IMG/VR virus record: IMGVR_UViG_3300017991_000020
Location: 1-50,294 of that record
From: a virus
Strand: one strand, 5' to 3'
Length of the DNA stretch: 50,294 bases
The position numbers and the translations under genes are program-made. Below are positions 2,540 through 50,294 of this stretch, one piece after another (within the stretch, counting starts at the first letter, position 1; every line of letters starts with the position of its first letter). The notes below the pieces were generated by a model. The model made no database searches. It saw nothing but the letters and a program-made list of their open reading frames with translations, and had not been told where the DNA came from.

Positions 2540-2891
2540 AAAAGAAGCAGAGATCCAAAGAGAAATACTTCATTATTTGAAGTGGAAGAAATACACTCAC
2601 TGGAGAAACTACGTTGGTCCTATAGTTCATGGGTATGGTGCCAAGCGTAGTTATTCTAAGAACCATATGGCTGGCCTTCCTGACATCCTTGGTATTTTCA
2701 AAAATAAACCTGGACAACTTTTCGGTATCGAAATAAAATCCAAGACTGGCAAATTAAGTACAGACCAAAAGTTATGGCTTAAGAGACTTGAAGACTCTGG
2801 CGTTTACGTTATGGTTGTGAGGAGTCTCGACACGGTCATTAAACTCCTAGAGGAGAGAGAGGCTTCCCATGCACGAGATTCTAAGCTTTGA
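2532..2891 (+). CDS. VRR-NUC domain nuclease
   Basis: A stand-alone VRR-NUC (PD-(D/E)XK superfamily) nuclease of about 119 residues. Seen motifs: E7 and E11 in the first helix (EAEIQREIL), D51 in GLPDILGI, E67-x-K69 in GIEIKSKTG and Q79 in STDQ, which are the family's metal and catalytic residues. I start it at the GTG at 2532, overlapping the upstream stop by 8 bases; a GTG at 2529 is equally possible, and reading further upstream to 2457 adds only out-of-family residues. Stand-alone viral VRR-NUC proteins are thought to act on branched DNA. The 3' end overlaps the ParB-like gene by 23 bases. Confidence 0.85.
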   Translation: MHKKEAEIQREILHYLKWKKYTHWRNYVGPIVHGYGAKRSYSKNHMAGLPDILGIFKNKPGQLFGIEIKSKTGKLSTDQKLWLKRLEDSGVYVMVVRSLDTVIKLLEEREASHARDSKL

Positions 2892-3738
2892 TATTGATGC
2901 TATTCAAGTAAGACCTGGTTGGAATATAAGAGGTGATATTAAGTCACAAGACATCACTTCACTTAAAGAGTCCATTGAAAAAATAGGACTTCAACAGCCC
3001 ATCATTGTGAACAGCAATAAAGAGCTCCTTGCTGGTTATCGTCGGTACACTGTATGCAAGGCTCTTGGACACAAGTTTATTCATTGTAAGGTTCTTGACT
3101 TTGAAGAGAACGCCTCAGACATGGAGAGATTAAGTCACCTTGATGAGAATCTTGAGAGCATGACACTGGGGACAAAGCAACTTGAGAAGGCTCTTGCAGA
3201 GAAGAAGGCTATTTATGCAAGGCTGTACCCATCCACTGTTGTGAGAGGACCAAAGAAGAGGAGTGATAAGAACAAGCTCACTAAGGTGTTTGAGAAGGTT
3301 GCTGCAAACCAGACAGGCAAGGATCCTGAGACAATAAGAAGGATGACAAAGCGTGTTGATAACGCCACGCCAGAAGTAAGGGAAGCCTATGAGAGAGATG
3401 AGATAAAGGCTTCTCAGGTTGACGAGATTGTTAAGCTTCCTAAGGAAGACCAGAAGAAGGTTCTCGAAAAAACAAAGGGTTCTTCTGTTGCTGAGACAAG
3501 GCTTGCTGTTGAGGACAGACTTAACAGAGACCTAATGCCAAAGCCCAGCACACAAGAGAGGTTTGTTCGCAAAGTTATAAACCACACAAAGGCTTTGAAC
3601 TTAATCTATGAGGACCTTATAAAGGGTCAGCAATTTAAAGATATCTCAGACCCACTGTACAAAGAGTTTGAGACAACATTCCAAGAAATTCTGGACAATA
3701 CTGACGAGCTTTTAAAACTTATTAATGGTGAGGATTGA
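2869..3738 (+). CDS. ParB-like nuclease / partition-domain protein
   Basis: A 289-residue protein whose N terminus carries the ParB/Srx fold: RPGWNIRGD near residue 17, an IGLQQPIIVN stretch, then the hallmark LLAGYRRYTVCKALG near 54-68. Residues about 150-210 look like a helical HTH region followed by a charged C-terminal domain. Related phage ParB-like proteins may be DNA binders, nucleases or CTP/ATP-dependent clamps; which applies cannot be told from sequence. It sits within the nuclease-rich replication operon, overlapping VRR-NUC at its start and touching the next small gene through TGATG. Confidence 0.85.
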   Translation: MHEILSFDIDAIQVRPGWNIRGDIKSQDITSLKESIEKIGLQQPIIVNSNKELLAGYRRYTVCKALGHKFIHCKVLDFEENASDMERLSHLDENLESMTLGTKQLEKALAEKKAIYARLYPSTVVRGPKKRSDKNKLTKVFEKVAANQTGKDPETIRRMTKRVDNATPEVREAYERDEIKASQVDEIVKLPKEDQKKVLEKTKGSSVAETRLAVEDRLNRDLMPKPSTQERFVRKVINHTKALNLIYEDLIKGQQFKDISDPLYKEFETTFQEILDNTDELLKLINGED

Positions 3739-6262: not shown

Positions 6263-6703
6263 ATGAATAAGCCAGCAATGGTTGTGCTTCACTGTTCAGC
6301 AACGCCTGACTTTGATGAGCATGACAGACGCTTTGATAAGTATGGACTGAGAGAGATTGACGCCTGGCACAGAGAGAAGGGATGGGAAGGATGTGGTTAT
6401 CACTATGTCATAAGAAGAACTGGCAGCATTGAAAAGGGAAGACCGCACAATAAAGAGGGTGCCCATTGTCTGGGTCATAACAAGAACTCTATTGGCATTT
6501 GTTTTATCGGGACAAGAATACTTACGGTCAATCAACTAATGGCAATAACGGTCCTATACGACTCTCTCAGGGCACAAGAATCAATCAACTGTGATAACTG
6601 GTTCGGGCACAGTGAGCTCAAGACGAGTACAGATTGTCCAAATATTCACATGCCATTGCTTCGAATAATGTTAGAGGTGATTGACTTTAATAAAAACAAC
6701 TAG
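6263..6703 (+). CDS. N-acetylmuramoyl-L-alanine amidase endolysin (T7 lysozyme-like)
   Basis: A 146-residue amidase_2/PGRP-fold enzyme that cleaves the bond between MurNAc and L-Ala in peptidoglycan. It shows the zinc ligands H10 (LHCSAT), H116 (FGHSEL) and C125 (TDCPN), and the catalytic Tyr in GYHYVI (Y46), in the same order as T7 lysozyme. The T7 lysine two residues before the zinc cysteine is replaced here by T123, which may affect catalysis. There is no signal peptide, so release would need a holin; candidates are the membrane proteins at 12203-12553, 8219-8623 or 3738-3890. Unusually it lies in the early arm rather than the late operon. Confidence 0.9.
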   Translation: MNKPAMVVLHCSATPDFDEHDRRFDKYGLREIDAWHREKGWEGCGYHYVIRRTGSIEKGRPHNKEGAHCLGHNKNSIGICFIGTRILTVNQLMAITVLYDSLRAQESINCDNWFGHSELKTSTDCPNIHMPLLRIMLEVIDFNKNN

Positions 6704-8218: not shown

Positions 8219-8623
8219 ATGAAACAGAGCACTAAAGATAAGGTCATTGGTTATGGCATTGTTGCTGCTATTGCTTCAATCATTATTGGTGGGGTTTACA
8301 TAGGCAAGGATCAGAAGATAAAGCCAACAGAACCAATTGAGAACGTGATCATTGAAGACGAGATAGATACGCCAAAGAAACCGGTTGTCCAAAGAAAAAA
8401 GACCACAAAACGGTTGTCTAAAAAACGACACAAGGTTGTCAAAAAAAAGAGCAAACCAAGACGTAAGTATGTGTGGAAGCCAAAGAAGAAGGCACCACTA
8501 AAAGGGTATGTCTACAGTCCTAAAAAAAAAGTCTTACCAGACATAGTCTCATACCCTGCCCACCTAGAGGATTACTATATATACGATTCAAAGACTGGGA
8601 ATTTTGTTTGGAGTGAGAAATGA
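8219..8623 (+). CDS. Membrane-anchored lysine-rich protein
   Basis: A 134-residue protein with one N-terminal transmembrane helix (about residues 10-28, IGYGIVAAIASIIIGGVYI) and then a long, strongly basic Pro/Lys-rich region (KKPVVQRKKTTKRLSKKRH). The layout resembles a TonB- or spanin-like periplasmic arm that could reach across the envelope or bind peptidoglycan. No second lysis gene partner is identified beside it, so a spanin role is only a guess. Its end overlaps the next start by 4 bases (ATGA). Confidence 0.7.
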   Translation: MKQSTKDKVIGYGIVAAIASIIIGGVYIGKDQKIKPTEPIENVIIEDEIDTPKKPVVQRKKTTKRLSKKRHKVVKKKSKPRRKYVWKPKKKAPLKGYVYSPKKKVLPDIVSYPAHLEDYYIYDSKTGNFVWSEK

Positions 8624-8826
8624 CAGACCTTAATGCAGAACACAAAAGATTAAAAGCTCGTGTTGAAGAGAGTTTCAACGTCTTCCTTCAATACTTCAAA
8701 GAGTATGAGGTCTTTGTGTTGAAGCATAGGGACTTCAAGTTTGAACAGGAGGTGATTCAATACCACAAAAGAGTTTTAAGGAAGAAGAAAAAAAGCAATG
8801 AAAAATGGACGAATTTGAGAAGTTAG
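8620..8826 (+). CDS. Small coiled-coil hypothetical protein
   Basis: A 68-residue, highly charged, probably coiled-coil protein, coupled to the upstream membrane protein by an ATGA overlap and to the next gene by a 22-base overlap. No family is recognised. The basic C terminus (KRVLRKKKKSNEK) might bind nucleic acid or membrane phosphates. Confidence 0.65.
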   Translation: MTDLNAEHKRLKARVEESFNVFLQYFKEYEVFVLKHRDFKFEQEVIQYHKRVLRKKKKSNEKWTNLRS

Positions 8827-9281
8827 AAAAAATTTTAACCATATATGAGCGTGTGCAAGAGTCCAATGTTAAGACAGCAAAGATCATGCACAACATGCAC
8901 CTGCACCGCTTAGAATTAGCTGAGAGGGCTTTTAAGATGCAAGGTAATACAGATTTTTTTTCAGAGTTCAATGCAAAGCTAAGAGAGGTCAACATCAATC
9001 CAACAGACCCACCAGTTGACCCCATGCCTGAGCCTACCCCAGAGCCTACCCCAGAACCGCCAAAGGAAGAAGCTCCTAAGCCTACACGAGAGCAGCAGGT
9101 CATAGGCAATATGAAATCATTCCTAGAGGTTGTTCTTCACAGACAGCAGAAGACTGCTGAGATGCACAAGACACTAATGGACGCCACTATGGAGTCCAAC
9201 AAAAAGATCTATGAATTTTACAAGCAAGTACAGGAAGACCTTAAACCACAAGACCTTAATAAGGTACAGAACAAATTTTAA
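8805..9281 (+). CDS. Two-helix protein with PEPTPEP hinge
   Basis: A 158-residue protein: helices at about residues 1-60, a rigid Pro/Glu hinge (DPMPEPTPEPTPEPPKEE, about 72-90), then a second helical block from about 95 to 150. At DNA level the hinge is a short tandem repeat (CCTACCCCAGAG twice, about 9032-9056), so its length could vary by slippage. The function is unknown; long helix-hinge-helix proteins often serve as spacers or adaptors. Confidence 0.65.
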   Translation: MDEFEKLEKILTIYERVQESNVKTAKIMHNMHLHRLELAERAFKMQGNTDFFSEFNAKLREVNINPTDPPVDPMPEPTPEPTPEPPKEEAPKPTREQQVIGNMKSFLEVVLHRQQKTAEMHKTLMDATMESNKKIYEFYKQVQEDLKPQDLNKVQNKF

Positions 9282-9295
9282 AAGGAGACATCCCT

Positions 9296-9517
9296 ATGAG
9301 AGAGATCACAACATTTATAAATCACCACGGTATTGACGTTGAAGAGATGCTCAAGAAGAAGGACAGCTTTGACAGGATCCAGGAGCAGAGATTCGGAGAG
9401 CTTTATCATCTTTGTGCAGAGCTAACCATAGGAGAACTTACCGTTGGGTTTTTTAGCAAACACTATACAGAGAGTCTTAAAGACAAAGAAGAGGAGTATG
9501 GGACAAATGATCAATGA
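9296..9517 (+). CDS. Hypothetical protein
   Basis: A 73-residue acidic protein with AAAGGAGACAT upstream and a probable all-helical fold. It overlaps the next gene by about 11 bases. No family is recognised. Confidence 0.6.
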   Translation: MREITTFINHHGIDVEEMLKKKDSFDRIQEQRFGELYHLCAELTIGELTVGFFSKHYTESLKDKEEEYGTNDQ

Positions 9518-10097
9518 GACGCCAGGCCACAACAACACACCACAGATGCAAACCATGTTTGCAAAGGAGCATGAACAGACAGAGCAGAAGTTCACTAAGA
9601 GAGAGTTCTTGCAGAGGTTTTTTAAAGACCCAGAAAATAGAGCTATGGCTGCTGAGTTTTTAAAAGACGATGAGTTAAAGAAGCAGCCTGAGAAGACAAC
9701 AACGGTTTACGACTTAAAGGTTGGAGACAAGTGTTTTGCAATATCCTATGAGGGTAAGGTGTGGGCAAAGAACTTTGAGAGAGGGCACAAGAAACACCGA
9801 AGGAAGTTCTTCATGACCAAGCTTGAAGCAGAGCTTGAGACCAAACGCTTAGACTCAGAAGAAGCCATAAGGAAGAGAATTGAAGAGCTTAACCAGGGTT
9901 GGGTTCCTGACTGGTTTAACAAAGACGAGAAGAAGTATTGTGTTTCTTATGATCACAACAGACAGGAGTTCACACCGTCCTATACAAGGACAGGTCAGAG
10001 AAAAGAGAACTGGCTTTACCTCAGGGATGTGAGTCTTGCTGAGAGAATCATAGGAGAAATGGAGACACACTTTAGAATCTATTTTGCAATAGTTTAG
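9507..10097 (+). CDS. Hypothetical protein with conserved C-terminal domain
   Basis: A protein of 196 residues from the ATG at 9507, chosen because AGGAG lies 10 bases upstream; the ATG at 9498 is too close to it. The N-terminal part is Gln/Lys-rich and helical. A C-terminal segment (about 95-190: VGDKCFAIS, KKYCVSYDHNRQEF, ENWLYLRDVSLAERII) looks like a small beta-rich globular domain repeated twice in shape. I do not recognise a family. Confidence 0.65.
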   Translation: MINETPGHNNTPQMQTMFAKEHEQTEQKFTKREFLQRFFKDPENRAMAAEFLKDDELKKQPEKTTTVYDLKVGDKCFAISYEGKVWAKNFERGHKKHRRKFFMTKLEAELETKRLDSEEAIRKRIEELNQGWVPDWFNKDEKKYCVSYDHNRQEFTPSYTRTGQRKENWLYLRDVSLAERIIGEMETHFRIYFAIV

Positions 10098-10106
10098 GAG
10101 ACAGAA

Positions 10107-10322
10107 GTGGATATCAAAAAAGTGACAGAAGACTATGAGAGAGTTAAAGAAAAGCTGTTAGAGAACAATAGAGCTCACAGAGAGAGGTTAAAAAAAATGG
10201 CATTAGACATACTATGTGACCTGCCTAATGGCTCAGACACAGCTATTTATTCTTTGGTTATACAAGACATTGTGGATCTTGATATTGCTTATCAGAAAAT
10301 AAAAATCTCCTTAGCACCATAA
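10107..10322 (+). CDS. Small helical hypothetical protein
   Basis: A 71-residue protein starting with GTG at 10107 after GGAG at 10097-10100. It is helical and charged in its first half. It is the last gene of the rightward early arm and is followed by a terminator 27 bases downstream. Confidence 0.6.
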   Translation: MDIKKVTEDYERVKEKLLENNRAHRERLKKMALDILCDLPNGSDTAIYSLVIQDIVDLDIAYQKIKISLAP

Positions 10323-10348
10323 AACCAAGGAGACCTTTTTAAACTAGG

Positions 10349-10377
10349 AGAGTCCTCTCACGAGGGCTCTTTTTTTA
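10349..10377 (+). terminator. Rho-independent terminator of the early arm
   Basis: A 9-base stem (AGAGTCCTC with GAGGGCTCT, one G-T pair) with loop TCAC, followed by seven T. It separates the rightward arm from the leftward RebB-like gene that ends at 10375, so it may also help stop the opposing transcript. Confidence 0.85.
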
Positions 10378-10782
10378 TCTGCCTGTCTCAGGTAAAGTGG
10401 TCTGAGCGCCCTTCATGATCTGCTGAAGAGATGCGACCAACCCACCGAGTTGAGCAAGAGTTTGAGGAAGAACAGAGTTTAACTGTCCTAATGTGTTTGC
10501 AAGGATGTGTCCCTGGCTCTGAGGATCAACACCAGTTAAAGCCTTCACTGAAGAAGAAGCTTCTAGTGGATCGATCTCTGCCAAGCTTTGGACTTGCTTG
10601 CAGATCAAGTTGTCAAGAGCACCATTCAAACGAGCAGAACCTCTGACAAGGTTCTCATTCATTTGCTTTGAGATGATTCGTGCGTCTTCCATTGTGCTTT
10701 GGAAGTACAATGAAGGGAACTCAGCGTTGTTTTTTACATTGCTGATTGACACGGTATCCACAATGGTATCATTTACTGGCAT
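10375..10782 (-). CDS. RebB-like (R-body / killing-trait family) protein
   Basis: A 135-residue protein. The first ~60 residues (MPVNDTIVDTVSISNVKNN ... LYFQSTMEDARIISKQMNENL) fit the RebB family pattern (PVN-x-I-x-D-x-V-x-x-x-NVK, then a long helix with Asn near its end). RebB-type proteins are subunits of R-bodies, coiled ribbons first known from Caedibacter and often linked to phage or plasmid elements. The C-terminal half (about 75-135) is Gln/Leu-rich and helical and not obviously conserved. It ends close to the terminator at 10349 and has its own promoter candidate. I recognise no RebA, RebC or RebD gene nearby, so ribbon formation is not implied. Confidence 0.5.
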   Translation of the reverse strand: MPVNDTIVDTVSISNVKNNAEFPSLYFQSTMEDARIISKQMNENLVRGSARLNGALDNLICKQVQSLAEIDPLEASSSVKALTGVDPQSQGHILANTLGQLNSVLPQTLAQLGGLVASLQQIMKGAQTTLPETGR

Positions 10783-10833
10783 AACTTACTCCATTGGTTA
10801 AATGAACGTTCAAAAATTTATGGTCATGAATTA

Positions 10834-10863
10834 AGCATATTCTTATAAACACGAGATAGTCAA
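10834..10863 (-). promoter_or_regulatory. Candidate sigma70 promoter for the RebB-like gene
   Basis: On the minus strand TTGACT (10863-10858), an 18-base spacer and TATGCT (10839-10834) lie 51 bases upstream of the RebB-like start. The gap of 109 bases between genes, in an otherwise tightly packed operon, supports separate expression. Confidence 0.5.
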
Positions 10864-10891: not shown

Positions 10892-11251
10892 TCAATCACT
10901 TATCTTTTTATAAAGTTTCATGAGATCCTGGATGTCACTGTAAAGATTCATTGCAAGCTTGAAGCAAGCCTCAGTAAGTTCCTCTGCCTTGTCAAAAGGA
11001 AGGTTAAGCTGTTCTTCAAAAAGAGTAAAAAGCTCTGCCTTCTCCGCTGGACTTAAGTCTTCAAACTCAACCTTTGCGTTCCGAAAATCTATCTCGATAA
11101 AAAGGTAAAGTAGTTTAATAAAATCTGAAGCATGTACCATGTCAGTCCAGGTTAGTTTGCCGTCTTCAAAAGTCTTTGCAGAGAGGTTGGTTAAACCAGT
11201 TACAAAAGTGATAAGCCTCTTAATCTCTTCTATGCCTAAACCCTTATTCAT
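10892..11251 (-). CDS. Hypothetical helical protein
   Basis: A 119-residue, probably all-helical protein. It is coupled to the upstream lipoprotein gene by an ATGA overlap at 11248-11251. Acidic middle (FEDLSPAEKAELFTLFEEQ), no cysteine cluster, no membrane helix. Its neighbours (a lipoprotein and a one-helix membrane protein) suggest a shared envelope-related operon, but its own role is unknown. Confidence 0.65.
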   Translation of the reverse strand: MNKGLGIEEIKRLITFVTGLTNLSAKTFEDGKLTWTDMVHASDFIKLLYLFIEIDFRNAKVEFEDLSPAEKAELFTLFEEQLNLPFDKAEELTEACFKLAMNLYSDIQDLMKLYKKISD

Positions 11252-12201
11252 TCTGATCTCCTAAAGTTGCTGGTTATGACTACATATGAATATAACCATC
11301 CAACAGCAGAATGCACCTTCTTTTCTTCTGGGCATGAGCGCCACTTATATTGATCTCTTTGAAATGGGTAGTCTGTACAATACTCAGCAGATGTTGGAAG
11401 CCTGTCGTTTGGGAAGTATGTGTCATCAACTAATAGCTCAATCGGACCAGTCATATCACCATCTGAGAAGCGCTTGTATACCGCAAAGTAAAGAGCATTA
11501 AGAGGTTCTCTCTCATGGTAGTACTTAAGAATCTCAAGCTCTCTCTCATTGACGTTGTTGGTTATTAGTGCCCTTAAGAATATGTGAAGGATATGAATGT
11601 GGGTTCTATACCCCTTCTCCATGACAGCCAAGAAGAATGGTGTAGGCTTCTGCCAAGCTTGAGGGATCCTTCTCTTATAGCTGTTCTCTCCACCGAGTTG
11701 GAACCTGAGCTCGTAAAACGTTGCCATAAGACCTGGTCTAACATCAATCCTGGTTGGGTCTCCTTCCCCCATGATCCAGTTATTGTCCTCACCATAAGCA
11801 ATGAGGTCGTCAATAACATCAAGCCTCTCATTGACCCAGATCCAATGAAGAAGCCCTATAAGCATGTCTCTTGAGATTGAAGAGCCAGACTGACCCAGAT
11901 CGAAACATTCCCTAGAAGCGTGTCTAAACCATCTGCCTGTCTCATCTCTGGCCTGCATGATGTCAACAGATATGCCAGCAATAGACCACAGAGAGTTAAA
12001 TAGAAGACCATCACACTTGATATTGGAGATCCAGTTATGGCTGTCTCTGTGGCCTGCTGAGGCTTCCCTGTAGAGATCATACTTTGAATTGAGTTTTTGT
12101 AGCAAGGTCGGTGGGTTTGGTTTGTTTGGCTTTTTGTCCTCTCTCTTGTCACCACAGCCTAAGAAGGCCAAAAGAAAAATTAAAAAAAATAGTCTCACCA
12201 T
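11248..12201 (-). CDS. Large putative lipoprotein
   Basis: A 317-residue protein with a signal ending in a lipobox (LAFLGC, lipidated C16) and a short Lys/Pro linker (DKREDKKPNKPNPP). The mature domain has a conserved-looking core with GRWFRHASRECFDLG, SGSSISRDMLIGLLHW and a LGGEN stretch, a helical layout reminiscent of alpha/alpha toroids. Cysteines at CDG, ECF, YCTD and SCPE may form disulfides. It starts one base after the membrane gene's stop, with AAGGGGGAC upstream. It may be a phage-encoded envelope enzyme or exclusion lipoprotein; I cannot assign a substrate. Confidence 0.7.
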   Translation of the reverse strand: MVRLFFLIFLLAFLGCGDKREDKKPNKPNPPTLLQKLNSKYDLYREASAGHRDSHNWISNIKCDGLLFNSLWSIAGISVDIMQARDETGRWFRHASRECFDLGQSGSSISRDMLIGLLHWIWVNERLDVIDDLIAYGEDNNWIMGEGDPTRIDVRPGLMATFYELRFQLGGENSYKRRIPQAWQKPTPFFLAVMEKGYRTHIHILHIFLRALITNNVNERELEILKYYHEREPLNALYFAVYKRFSDGDMTGPIELLVDDTYFPNDRLPTSAEYCTDYPFQRDQYKWRSCPEEKKVHSAVGWLYSYVVITSNFRRSE

Positions 12202-12202
12202 A

Positions 12203-12553
12203 CTAGTCCCCCTTATCTAGTCGAATTAAGATCCTGTCGAGAATGTAAGTTGTCTTCTCTTGATGTACTGCCATTGTCTGAAGTTTGTCCAAGAGCTCCT
12301 TTTGGATGTTGGTTAAAGATCTTGGGATGTACCATCTAGGCACCCCGTCCTCATCCCTCTCGTTGTGGAGCTCATGAAGGTTCTTCAACCACTCATGCTC
12401 TTCCGTTGTGAGCGATGGTTTGACTTGTATCTGACTCTTTTTTGCTTGACCAATCATGGGGATCTTTTGAACAAGAAGTTTGAGAACTCCAATAAGAGCC
12501 ATTAAAACACCAACCATTGCTGCAGTTTCTGCAGACTGTGCAGTTAAACCCAT
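12203..12553 (-). CDS. Single-pass membrane protein (holin candidate)
   Basis: A 116-residue protein with one N-terminal transmembrane segment (about residues 10-31, AAMVGVLMALIGVLKLLV) and a cytoplasmic or periplasmic charged domain containing WYIPRSL and several helices. It lies at the end of the structural operon, where many phages keep lysis or tail-accessory membrane proteins. The amidase at 6263 lacks a signal peptide and needs a release partner, so a holin role is possible but unproved. Confidence 0.6.
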   Translation of the reverse strand: MGLTAQSAETAAMVGVLMALIGVLKLLVQKIPMIGQAKKSQIQVKPSLTTEEHEWLKNLHELHNERDEDGVPRWYIPRSLTNIQKELLDKLQTMAVHQEKTTYILDRILIRLDKGD

Positions 12554-45248: not shown

Positions 45249-45449
45249 ATGACTAGCACAATTATTCCTGACACAAAACGAAAAACTTTTCTATTGCGGA
45301 TAAAATTTAAGGACTATGCAAGGATAGTCGAAAAGGCGTATGAGTATGCAGATGGGAATGTTTCGGAGTGGTTTAGATATGCTGCTATGAATCACATTCC
45401 CTCAGAGGAAGATCTATATAGGAAGGTTGACAATGAATATATTTCTTAG
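45249..45449 (+). CDS. Small ribbon-helix-helix-type regulator
   Basis: A 66-residue protein from the ATG at 45249 (AAAGGA upstream; an in-frame start at 45189 is unlikely). It has a strand-like KRKTFLLRIKF followed by two helices (DYARIVEKAYEYADGNVSEWFRYAAMNHI), the size and layout of Arc/MetJ RHH repressors. As first gene of the rightward arm it may autoregulate the overlapping divergent promoters upstream. It overlaps QueE by 17 bases. Confidence 0.6.
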   Translation: MTSTIIPDTKRKTFLLRIKFKDYARIVEKAYEYADGNVSEWFRYAAMNHIPSEEDLYRKVDNEYIS

Positions 45450-46023
45450 AGATGCTTACTGGTCTGTCCAAGGCGAGGGTTATAACACGGGTCGTTGGGG
45501 TCTTTTCTTAAAGTTTCATGGTTGCAATTTGAAGTGTGAGTGGTGTGATACAGATCACAAGAGAGCAGAGTATAAGTATAATGCAGAGCAGTTGGTTGGT
45601 TTATTCAATGTTAACGATTCTAGGTATTCTTTTCTTACAGGTGGAGAGCCTAGTGTTAGTGTTCACGTTGGTGATGTTATTAATCTGCTTAGAATGAATG
45701 ACTTCATAGTGTGCCTTGAGAGCAATGGAGTAGAGAAGTGTCCTCAGGGTGTTGACTTCCTTACGGTGTCTCCTAAGAGAGATAACCGTTATAAGATACA
45801 TCCTTACAATTTAGTACATGCCAATGAGTTTAAGTATGTTGTTGATCAGAACTTTGAGTGGGAAGTATTGAGCAGGCATAAGGGCGCCAGTGGTCAGCTT
45901 CTTTATTTGAGTCCTGAGTATACTGATATGGAGAGCAACGTTATAGATATTTTATCGTTTATAGAGACGAGACCAGAGTGGCGATTGTCTTTACAAACAC
46001 AGAAGTGGATTGATGTGAGATGA
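45433..46023 (+). CDS. queE: 7-carboxy-7-deazaguanine synthase (radical SAM)
   Basis: A 196-residue QueE homologue starting at the ATG at 45433 after GGAAGG. Visible hallmarks: SVQGEG (11-16), the radical SAM cluster C31-x3-C35-x2-C38 (GCNLKCEWCDT), TGGEP (69-73), ESNG (96-99) and TVSPK (111-115). It converts CPH4 to 7-carboxy-7-deazaguanine in the preQ0 pathway. No QueC, QueD, FolE, Tgt or DpdA gene is recognised in the genome, so it would have to work with host enzymes. Length and motifs are normal for the family. Confidence 0.9.
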   Translation: MNIFLRDAYWSVQGEGYNTGRWGLFLKFHGCNLKCEWCDTDHKRAEYKYNAEQLVGLFNVNDSRYSFLTGGEPSVSVHVGDVINLLRMNDFIVCLESNGVEKCPQGVDFLTVSPKRDNRYKIHPYNLVHANEFKYVVDQNFEWEVLSRHKGASGQLLYLSPEYTDMESNVIDILSFIETRPEWRLSLQTQKWIDVR

Positions 46024-46259
46024 CTGACGAGGAACTTTTAAAACACAAAGAAGAAAATAATTTATGGGACCACATACATTCCTTCTTATCGGTATTTAAG
46101 AAAATGAAGGAAGGCAAGTGGAACTGGACCAAGAACGCCAAGTGTAAGTATGTTGTGCTTAGGGTTGATATGAGAGACGGTGGTTGCATTATAAGCGACA
46201 GGAACGGAAGGAGAATATCACCAAAGATGCTTGCTTACCAATGTGATGAGGACAAATGA
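46020..46259 (+). CDS. Hypothetical protein
   Basis: A 79-residue protein coupled to QueE by an ATGA overlap at 46020-46023. It has a helical first part and a beta-type end (KCKYVVLRVDMRDGGCIIS). No family recognised. Its tight coupling to QueE makes it a candidate partner, but nothing else supports that. The following gene starts one base after its stop. Confidence 0.6.
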   Translation: MTDEELLKHKEENNLWDHIHSFLSVFKKMKEGKWNWTKNAKCKYVVLRVDMRDGGCIISDRNGRRISPKMLAYQCDEDK

Positions 46260-46260
46260 G

Positions 46261-46932
46261 ATGACAAGAAAAGGCTTTTGCGAACTACCATTAATCAAGA
46301 TCAAAGAATGTGCTTGGAACTACAAGCTTGATGACAAAGAGCTTGAGTCAAAGCTGAAGGCAAACATTGAGAAGAACGGCCAGATAGAGAATCTTATAGT
46401 TCGTTCTATCAAAGATGGTTTGTATGAGTGTGTAAACGGGAACCATAGATTAAAGGTTCTTAGAGATCTTGGTGTTGATAAGGTGAGGGTGTTTAATCTT
46501 GGCACCATTTCTCAAGCAAAGGCAAAGAGAATTGCGGTTGAGACCAATGAGACAAAGTTCAGGTCAGATCCTTTGAAGCTTTGCGATGTTGTTAGAGAAG
46601 TTCATGATGAGTTTGGTATGGTTGATATTTCTGAGACACTTCCATATACAGGTGATGAGATTGAGACGCTTATATCCTTGGATGATCCCCCCAAAGAGGA
46701 AGAGAAGGATGAGCCTAAGTACACCAACCAGGAGACAAAGACAAAGTTTATTGTTGATGGTTCTTTGGGTGTTTTAATGAGGGGTCAAGTTGATAGGATC
46801 AAGCACTTCATATACCCAGACCGAGCTCCTGAGAATGTACCAGACTCTGCTGCTTTTGATTTCATGTGTGGTTATTTTTCTACTATGTCAGACAATGAAC
46901 TTAAAGCAGAGGTCTACTCGTCACTTGAATGA
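46261..46932 (+). CDS. ParB-like partition/nuclease domain protein
   Basis: A 223-residue protein from the ATG at 46261 (GAGG 11 bases upstream). The N-terminal domain shows the ParB fold: CELPLIKIKECAWNYK, GQIENLIVRSIKDGLYECVNGNHRLKVLRDLG (G-N-H-R at about residues 61-64) and the helix AKRIAVETNET. The C-terminal region is unrelated to classical ParB and has no clear HTH. A second ParB-like gene lies at 2869. It ends the rightward control operon before the terminator at 47024. Confidence 0.8.
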   Translation: MTRKGFCELPLIKIKECAWNYKLDDKELESKLKANIEKNGQIENLIVRSIKDGLYECVNGNHRLKVLRDLGVDKVRVFNLGTISQAKAKRIAVETNETKFRSDPLKLCDVVREVHDEFGMVDISETLPYTGDEIETLISLDDPPKEEEKDEPKYTNQETKTKFIVDGSLGVLMRGQVDRIKHFIYPDRAPENVPDSAAFDFMCGYFSTMSDNELKAEVYSSLE

Positions 46933-49685: not shown

Positions 49686-50294
49686 CTACCGATCGATTGA
49701 TGATGTCTACAATGAACTACATGACATCATGGCAAAGCATGAGGTATTCACAACAGCAAAAGTTATTGAGAGCAAGTCCAATACGTTTGCAAACAACAAT
49801 GGCAAGAGGGCTGTTCACGTACAGAACAGATATGAGTTTACCTTCCATACCACTGACGGTTCTTCTTTATCGACAGAGGCAATTGGTGAGTCCATAGACA
49901 CGAGTGACAAGGCTTGCAATAAAGCTTCCTCAATGGCTCATAAGACAGCCCTTCTTCAGACGTTCCTCATCCCAACCAAAGAGGACAAGGACCCAGACAA
50001 GCACTCTCACGAGATCCCAATGGACCAGAGCCAACCACAGAATGCCAACCAGAGATTAAGGCAAGCTCAACAAAGAGCTCCACAGCAGAGTCCTGCTCCT
50101 CAGAGAGCACCTCGTCAGCAACCAAGACCACAACAACCCAGGCAGCAGGCTGTCCCAGATATGCCGCCACAAGCTCCATGGCCTGACGCTCCACCGCCAG
50201 ACATTGACCTAGATACTAATGTCATTCCTATGCCAAGTGACCATGACACAAAAAGCTTCACGCAAAATGGCCTGCCTTCAATGAAGTCTGTGTG
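49582..50294 (+). CDS. ERF-type single-strand annealing protein, N-terminal part (continues at window start)
   Basis: This gene runs off the window end and finishes at 277; together 288 residues. The N-terminal ~135 residues form the ERF annealing domain: KIYAAIAAVMKEVNAITKDQ, NYRSIDDVYNELHDIM, an AHKTALLQTFLIP end, followed by a long Gln/Pro/Arg-rich linker (about 150-200). The start ATG at 49582 (AAGGAG) gives the usual family N terminus; a later ATG at 49630 would cut it. ERF proteins anneal complementary single strands and pair with a RecE/exonuclease, here at 48532. The partial end is only an effect of where the circle was opened. Confidence 0.9.
   Translation, partial: MTDTNNAKIYAAIAAVMKEVNAITKDQKNEIQRYNYRSIDDVYNELHDIMAKHEVFTTAKVIESKSNTFANNNGKRAVHVQNRYEFTFHTTDGSSLSTEAIGESIDTSDKACNKASSMAHKTALLQTFLIPTKEDKDPDKHSHEIPMDQSQPQNANQRLRQAQQRAPQQSPAPQRAPRQQPRPQQPRQQAVPDMPPQAPWPDAPPPDIDLDTNVIPMPSDHDTKSFTQNGLPSMKSV
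50172..50294. repeat. Terminal direct repeat, right copy
   Basis: Identical to bases 1-123. The duplicated stretch encodes the same part of the ERF linker, in frame, confirming the contig closes on itself. Confidence 0.95.

Follow-up and report, generated by a model that had tools for sequence, protein, structure and literature searches.

The question raised by this locus is whether a virus carries its own member of the RebB family (PF11747), to which the subunits of R-bodies, spring-like ribbons produced by certain bacteria, belong, and what such a protein would do there. The window, meaning the whole stretch of 50,294 nucleotides analyzed, had been annotated as encoding a RebB-like protein with its own promoter, located at the end of the structural arm beside a lipoprotein and a membrane protein, and possibly linked to lysis. 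Bases 1–123 and 50172–50294 of the window are identical (123 bp), indicating that it is probably a complete phage genome, either circularly closed or terminally redundant.

The gene and its setting in the phage genome

The open reading frame is real: it has an ATG start, a GGAG ribosome-binding site, 135 codons and relatives at 60% identity, the closest of which aligns over 127 aa and is found in another virus. The N-terminus quoted in the initial annotation, MPVNDTIVDTVSISNVKNNAEFP, matches the translated protein, and the true Reb proteins that were retrieved begin with VNSQITDSVTQANVKVLGDAP. The pattern [IV]xDxVxxxN[VF]Kxxx[ED]xP, picked after the sequence had been viewed, occurred 0 times in 200,000 shuffles of the window protein. 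The maximum hydropathy over 19 residues was 1.03, and no membrane helix was seen. The LPETG at the C-terminus was assessed as a possible sortase signal; this was rejected because relatives carry PPVT, PPET or RPET instead and no membrane anchor was seen. A Pfam match to DUF6583 (E 0.0046) was likewise set aside, being far under the cut-off of that family and unseen in the relatives.

Table 1. Positions of the Reb-like gene, its parts and the surrounding features in the window
Feature	Position	Strand	Basis
Phage Reb-like gene, 135 aa	10375..10782	−	ORF, ATG start; ~36 other viral records homologous
GGAG ribosome-binding site of the Reb-like gene	10789..10792	−	Sequence
IVDTVSISNVKNNAEFP signature and helical region, residues 2–73	10564..10779	−	hhalign, family against true Reb proteins (Reb residues 4–74)
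C-terminal tail QQIMKGAQTTLPET, residues 119–133	10384..10428	−	Alignment A5; in most family members, absent from Reb proteins examined
Sigma-70-like site TTGACT-18-TATGCT	10834..10863	−	At chance level
119-aa ORF, first gene upstream of the Reb-like gene	10892..11251	−	Family search: none
Lipoprotein-like ORF, lipobox FLGC	11248..12201	−	Family search: none
Small membrane protein; N-terminal hydrophobic stretch, rest charged and helical-looking	12203..12553	−	Family search: none
Amidase_2 endolysin candidate, opposite arm	6263..6703	+	PF01510, E 8.4e-14
Terminator-like hairpin closing the rightward arm; converges with the Reb-like gene	10346..10373	+	
Terminator-like hairpin directly downstream of the Reb-like gene, same strand	10301..10338	−	

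As had been claimed, the structural arm, which runs leftward (−) and encodes terminase, portal, a head protein and protease, and tape measure, ends with the Reb-like gene. The rightward arm and the Reb-like gene converge over the two terminator-like hairpins (Table 1). The lipoprotein-like and membrane proteins lie upstream on the same strand, beyond the 119-aa ORF. No Rfam match or tRNA was found in the window. Elsewhere on the (+) strand, we observed two different ParB-like proteins (2869–3738 and 46231–46932) and a QueE-like radical SAM protein (45427–46023), the latter of which suggests that guanine is modified in the phage DNA or that the protein takes part in host tRNA modification.

The other two parts of the annotation fared less well. 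The sigma-70-like site is present exactly at 10863–10834; however, the scan found 4 sites of this kind when shuffled sequence would be expected to give 4.5, and comparison of the DNA upstream of the gene with that of its nearest relative did not reveal convincing conservation. A promoter belonging to the Reb-like gene itself was therefore rejected. The link to lysis is weak in the window phage, whose sole recognized endolysin, Amidase_2, is encoded ~3.7 kb away. The location of this amidase in the other arm and the chance level of the supposed separating promoter both speak against a role in lysis in this phage.

Homology to RebB through a viral family

An HMM search with the RebB family, by which the initial annotation proposed to check its reading, gave no match for the window protein. 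PF11747, whose curated cut-off is 24 bits, did not match it at E≤1 when it was searched alone or at E≤10 when the family alignment was scanned, and a six-frame search of the whole record with the same model was also negative. No alignment was obtained when it was compared with a single Reb protein by BLAST, and with a profile built from true Reb proteins the score of the window protein alone (20.7) was exceeded by 1 of 100 shuffles. Sequence searching does not connect the window protein to RebB directly.

By profile comparison, the window protein clearly belongs to a viral family, against which it scored 105 bits, and 110 when the window clade was left out of the profile. The family consists of ~37 IMG/VR records including the window, together with one 3.2-kb gammaproteobacterial MAG contig from the genome collection. 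The viral members were drawn from the four IMG/VR scans that gave relatives (alignments A3 and A5); several scans were seeded on the C-terminal tail and one on the N-terminus alone. INPHARED phages, for which seven proteins of the family and a single true Reb served as queries, contained no relative, nor did the PDB sequences, and the plasmid search returned weak lactobacillus noise alone. Neither IMG/VR nor INPHARED phages yielded canonical Reb proteins. The family is apparently virus-restricted and undescribed, and since a single MAG contig was recovered from the genome collection, it seems not to be frequent in prophages. In a FastTree phylogeny, the window protein joined both copies of L008 with a support of 0.94. 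Nevertheless, no window protein other than the Reb-like one was found in the 54-kb L008 record at E≤1e-4, indicating from protein content that the gene moves among phages that are unrelated in other respects.

The resemblance to RebB was then assessed for the family. PF11747 matched at E≤1 in 16 of the first 26 viral records, and in four of the 26 the curated cut-off was exceeded (26.5, 26.4, 24.8 and 24.2 bits). In an all-Pfam scan, RebB matched 13 of 29 aligned family members with a best E of 2.1e-6, and any other Pfam family matched three at most. Alignment of the family with true Reb proteins by hhalign covered 60 columns at 91–95% probability with scores of 39–45; the score was 42.1 for the full family and 45.3 without the window clade. 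As controls, 100 column-shuffled versions of the full-family alignment scored 18.6 at most, and the reversed one scored 9.2. We therefore regard homology of the phage family to RebB as very probable. The alternative, that short alanine-rich helical proteins have converged on a similar appearance, is in keeping with the near-chance score of the window protein alone, but is highly improbable given the four relatives above the curated cut-off, the failure of the shuffled and reversed controls, and the signature, whose N-terminal position and register coincide in both groups. The chain from window to family to RebB holds because the window protein fits the family and the family fits the RebB profile. 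What stands of the RebB-like label is thus a remote homology at the family level, whereas the window protein itself falls below the curated RebB threshold.

The Reb signature IxDxVxxxNxKxxxE is kept in the phage family, in which N15 and K17 of the NxK element are invariant and KxxxD/E, one of the diagnostic Reb motifs (PMC13430693), is found in 25 of 29 members. The window protein reads TIVD, with the Q of QITD replaced, and KNNAE followed by FP; the QITD plus KxxxD/E feature was judged to be present. Many relatives also carry a NAV/QQ(Q) motif in forms such as NAVAHQ and NAVAFQQ; this motif is missing from the window protein, which has ENLVRGSARLN. The best conserved stretch of the family is QQxMKGAQTTPPxTG, the C-terminus of most members, which is absent from the Reb proteins examined. 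Matches to this tail pattern on viral contigs were Reb-like ORFs, the remainder being short out-of-context frames, although the frequency of the tail is biased because several scans were seeded on it. The N-terminus-only scan yielded the tail-less members L107, L110 and L112, of which L112 was missed by the family model and is of doubtful membership. Charged residues make up 11–20% of the phage cores (~16%; 15% in the window) compared to 4–8% (~7%) in seven true Reb proteins, a more than two-fold difference.

Compared with the PF11747 R-body subunits of Caedibacter taeniospiralis, Pseudomonas aeruginosa PA14 and others, the phage proteins thus have (Q)ITDxVxxxNxKxxxD/E in common and in register. 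They are likewise small and lack a membrane segment (none was detected by hydropathy in the A5 members), many have a NAV/QQ-like motif, and some viruses encode tandem paralogues. They differ in their higher charge, in the extra tail and in being encoded in phage late regions, and the window protein additionally lies under the curated cut-off and is encoded by a single copy. Reb group S2 resembles the phage family in combining a Reb-like N-terminal part with a proline-containing extension. However, S2 genes, with their proline-rich C-terminal extension, belong to bacterial reb clusters that also contain primary reb genes (PMC13430693), unlike those of the phage family, and the S2-like example L035 has a long PPAPSPPP region without the KGAQTT tail.

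Gene copies and neighbors in related viruses

The Reb-like gene occurs once in the window, twice in L008, L021, L045 and L048, and as three tandem genes in L108 (2552–3803) and L109 (2157–3339), the L108 set being located directly downstream of the large terminase. Large terminase or portal genes adjoin the Reb-like gene, or are one gene off, in at least seven viruses (L016, L019, L020, L022, L105, L107 and L108). As read from sequence, L050 encodes major-tail-like and tape-measure-like proteins on either side of it and L023 a head protein upstream; a collagen-like fiber is encoded upstream in L014. Holin, transglycosylase or lysozyme genes were found nearby in L011, L024, L057, L040 and L039. 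These candidates were chosen by eye, so no enrichment of lysis genes is claimed, and packaging or tail genes are neighbors in the relatives as frequently as holin or endolysin genes. Flanking genes were on the same strand as the Reb-like gene in 40 of 46 cases.

A short coiled-coil gene adjoining the Reb-like gene is a recurrent partner in many relatives. An HMM derived from the coiled-coil genes of the loci found first identified the exact next gene in 5 of 10 later loci (E 1.9e-6 to 0.0017), and the enrichment of coil-like neighbors by composition alone was borderline (p = 0.056). Searching the window with the partner HMM did not detect such a gene. A small conserved gene with the motif KxxFxxTNDDGSPFSS..W was also observed after the Reb-like gene in L099 (3708–3890) and L105 (3546–3740), where it follows the coiled-coil gene, and a similar one is present in L039 and L040; it is possibly a third member of the module. 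Features of a trypsin-like serine protease were observed upstream of tandem pairs, in L021 at 8596–9867 (with a collagen-like tail) and in L045 ~1 kb upstream. In L015 (8788–12204) and L017 (10374–13805), radical SAM and other enzyme-like genes come after the Reb-like gene and are conserved between both.

Proposed role and relation to R-bodies

On sequence grounds, the gene product is a divergent protein with a Reb domain, from a family restricted to phages. Most likely, this helical protein is made late, associates with itself and docks through its tail. From the position of the gene and the co-oriented flanking genes, we infer that it would be made late, alongside the virion genes. The N-terminal 70 residues, which at the family level share ancestry with RebA/RebB, probably form a self-associating helical unit, as homologous Reb proteins polymerize. 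The conserved C-terminal tail probably docks to a phage partner, either a head or tail component or the coiled-coil neighbor. Most likely, then, the protein would form a small polymer with an accessory function or be a factor associated with the virion, and would not be a classical contractile R-body. We put this combination of self-association and docking forward tentatively, with slightly less than even confidence. A classical R-body in the window phage is unlikely because the genome looks complete and has one copy, and known R-bodies are built by several Reb proteins: their loci contain several reb genes per cluster, often three or more, and the main components are RebA plus RebB or RebP1 plus RebP2 (PMC8322103).

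Two other roles were weighed against this proposal. The protein could be a minor virion component or a head or tail assembly factor, in which the Reb-like helices serve as a packing unit and polymerization has been lost. The location of the gene beside terminase and portal or amid tail and fiber genes in many unrelated phages argues for this, as do the higher charge and the conserved tail, which is typical of a docking peptide. However, the gene moves apart from structural genes, the record of the nearest relative sharing no other protein with the window, and such independent movement is unusual for a part fitted to a particular virion; we consider this role somewhat unlikely. A little less probable still is a true R-body-like polymer, that is, an extendable ribbon or sheet in the infected cell that aids cell breakage or harms a grazing protist. 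The Reb homology of the family is consistent with it, the triple and double genes resemble bacterial reb clusters with paralogues, and holin or endolysin genes lie near the gene in the five viruses named above. Such a polymer is, in contrast, hard to reconcile with a lone gene in a genome that is probably complete when known R-bodies have two main components (PMC8322103), with a core more than twice as charged as that of true Reb proteins, with an added tail unmatched in any of the Reb proteins examined, and with a window endolysin that is located elsewhere.

In 1974, phage-like particles were observed alongside R-bodies, and whether R-bodies originated from phages has been argued over ever since. 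Such an origin was proposed from phage-like particles and plasmid-borne phage genes, but a 2013 survey did not find Reb homologues in phages (PMC3583457). On the pKAP plasmids of Caedibacter, reb genes similarly lie beside phage genes (PMC7297999, PMC3583457), but there a canonical reb operon is carried on a plasmid, whereas the window has a divergent gene inside an apparently intact tailed-phage genome. In a 2026 survey of 151,976 Reb sequences, the word "phage" is absent (PMC13430693), and we found no description of phage Reb proteins in the open-access literature, most subscription journals and preprints lying beyond this search. We therefore count the family as a phage branch of the RebB superfamily, as judged by homology and with a predicted function. 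It is conceivable, though improbable, that lytic phages encode late R-body-like polymers of their own, comprising Reb loci of 1–3 copies with a coiled-coil partner, from which bacterial R-bodies could descend. The phage-borne Reb family reopens the question of whether R-bodies came from viruses, and the phage Reb genes, triple loci included, provide concrete material for testing whether they have a common function with R-bodies besides a common ancestry.
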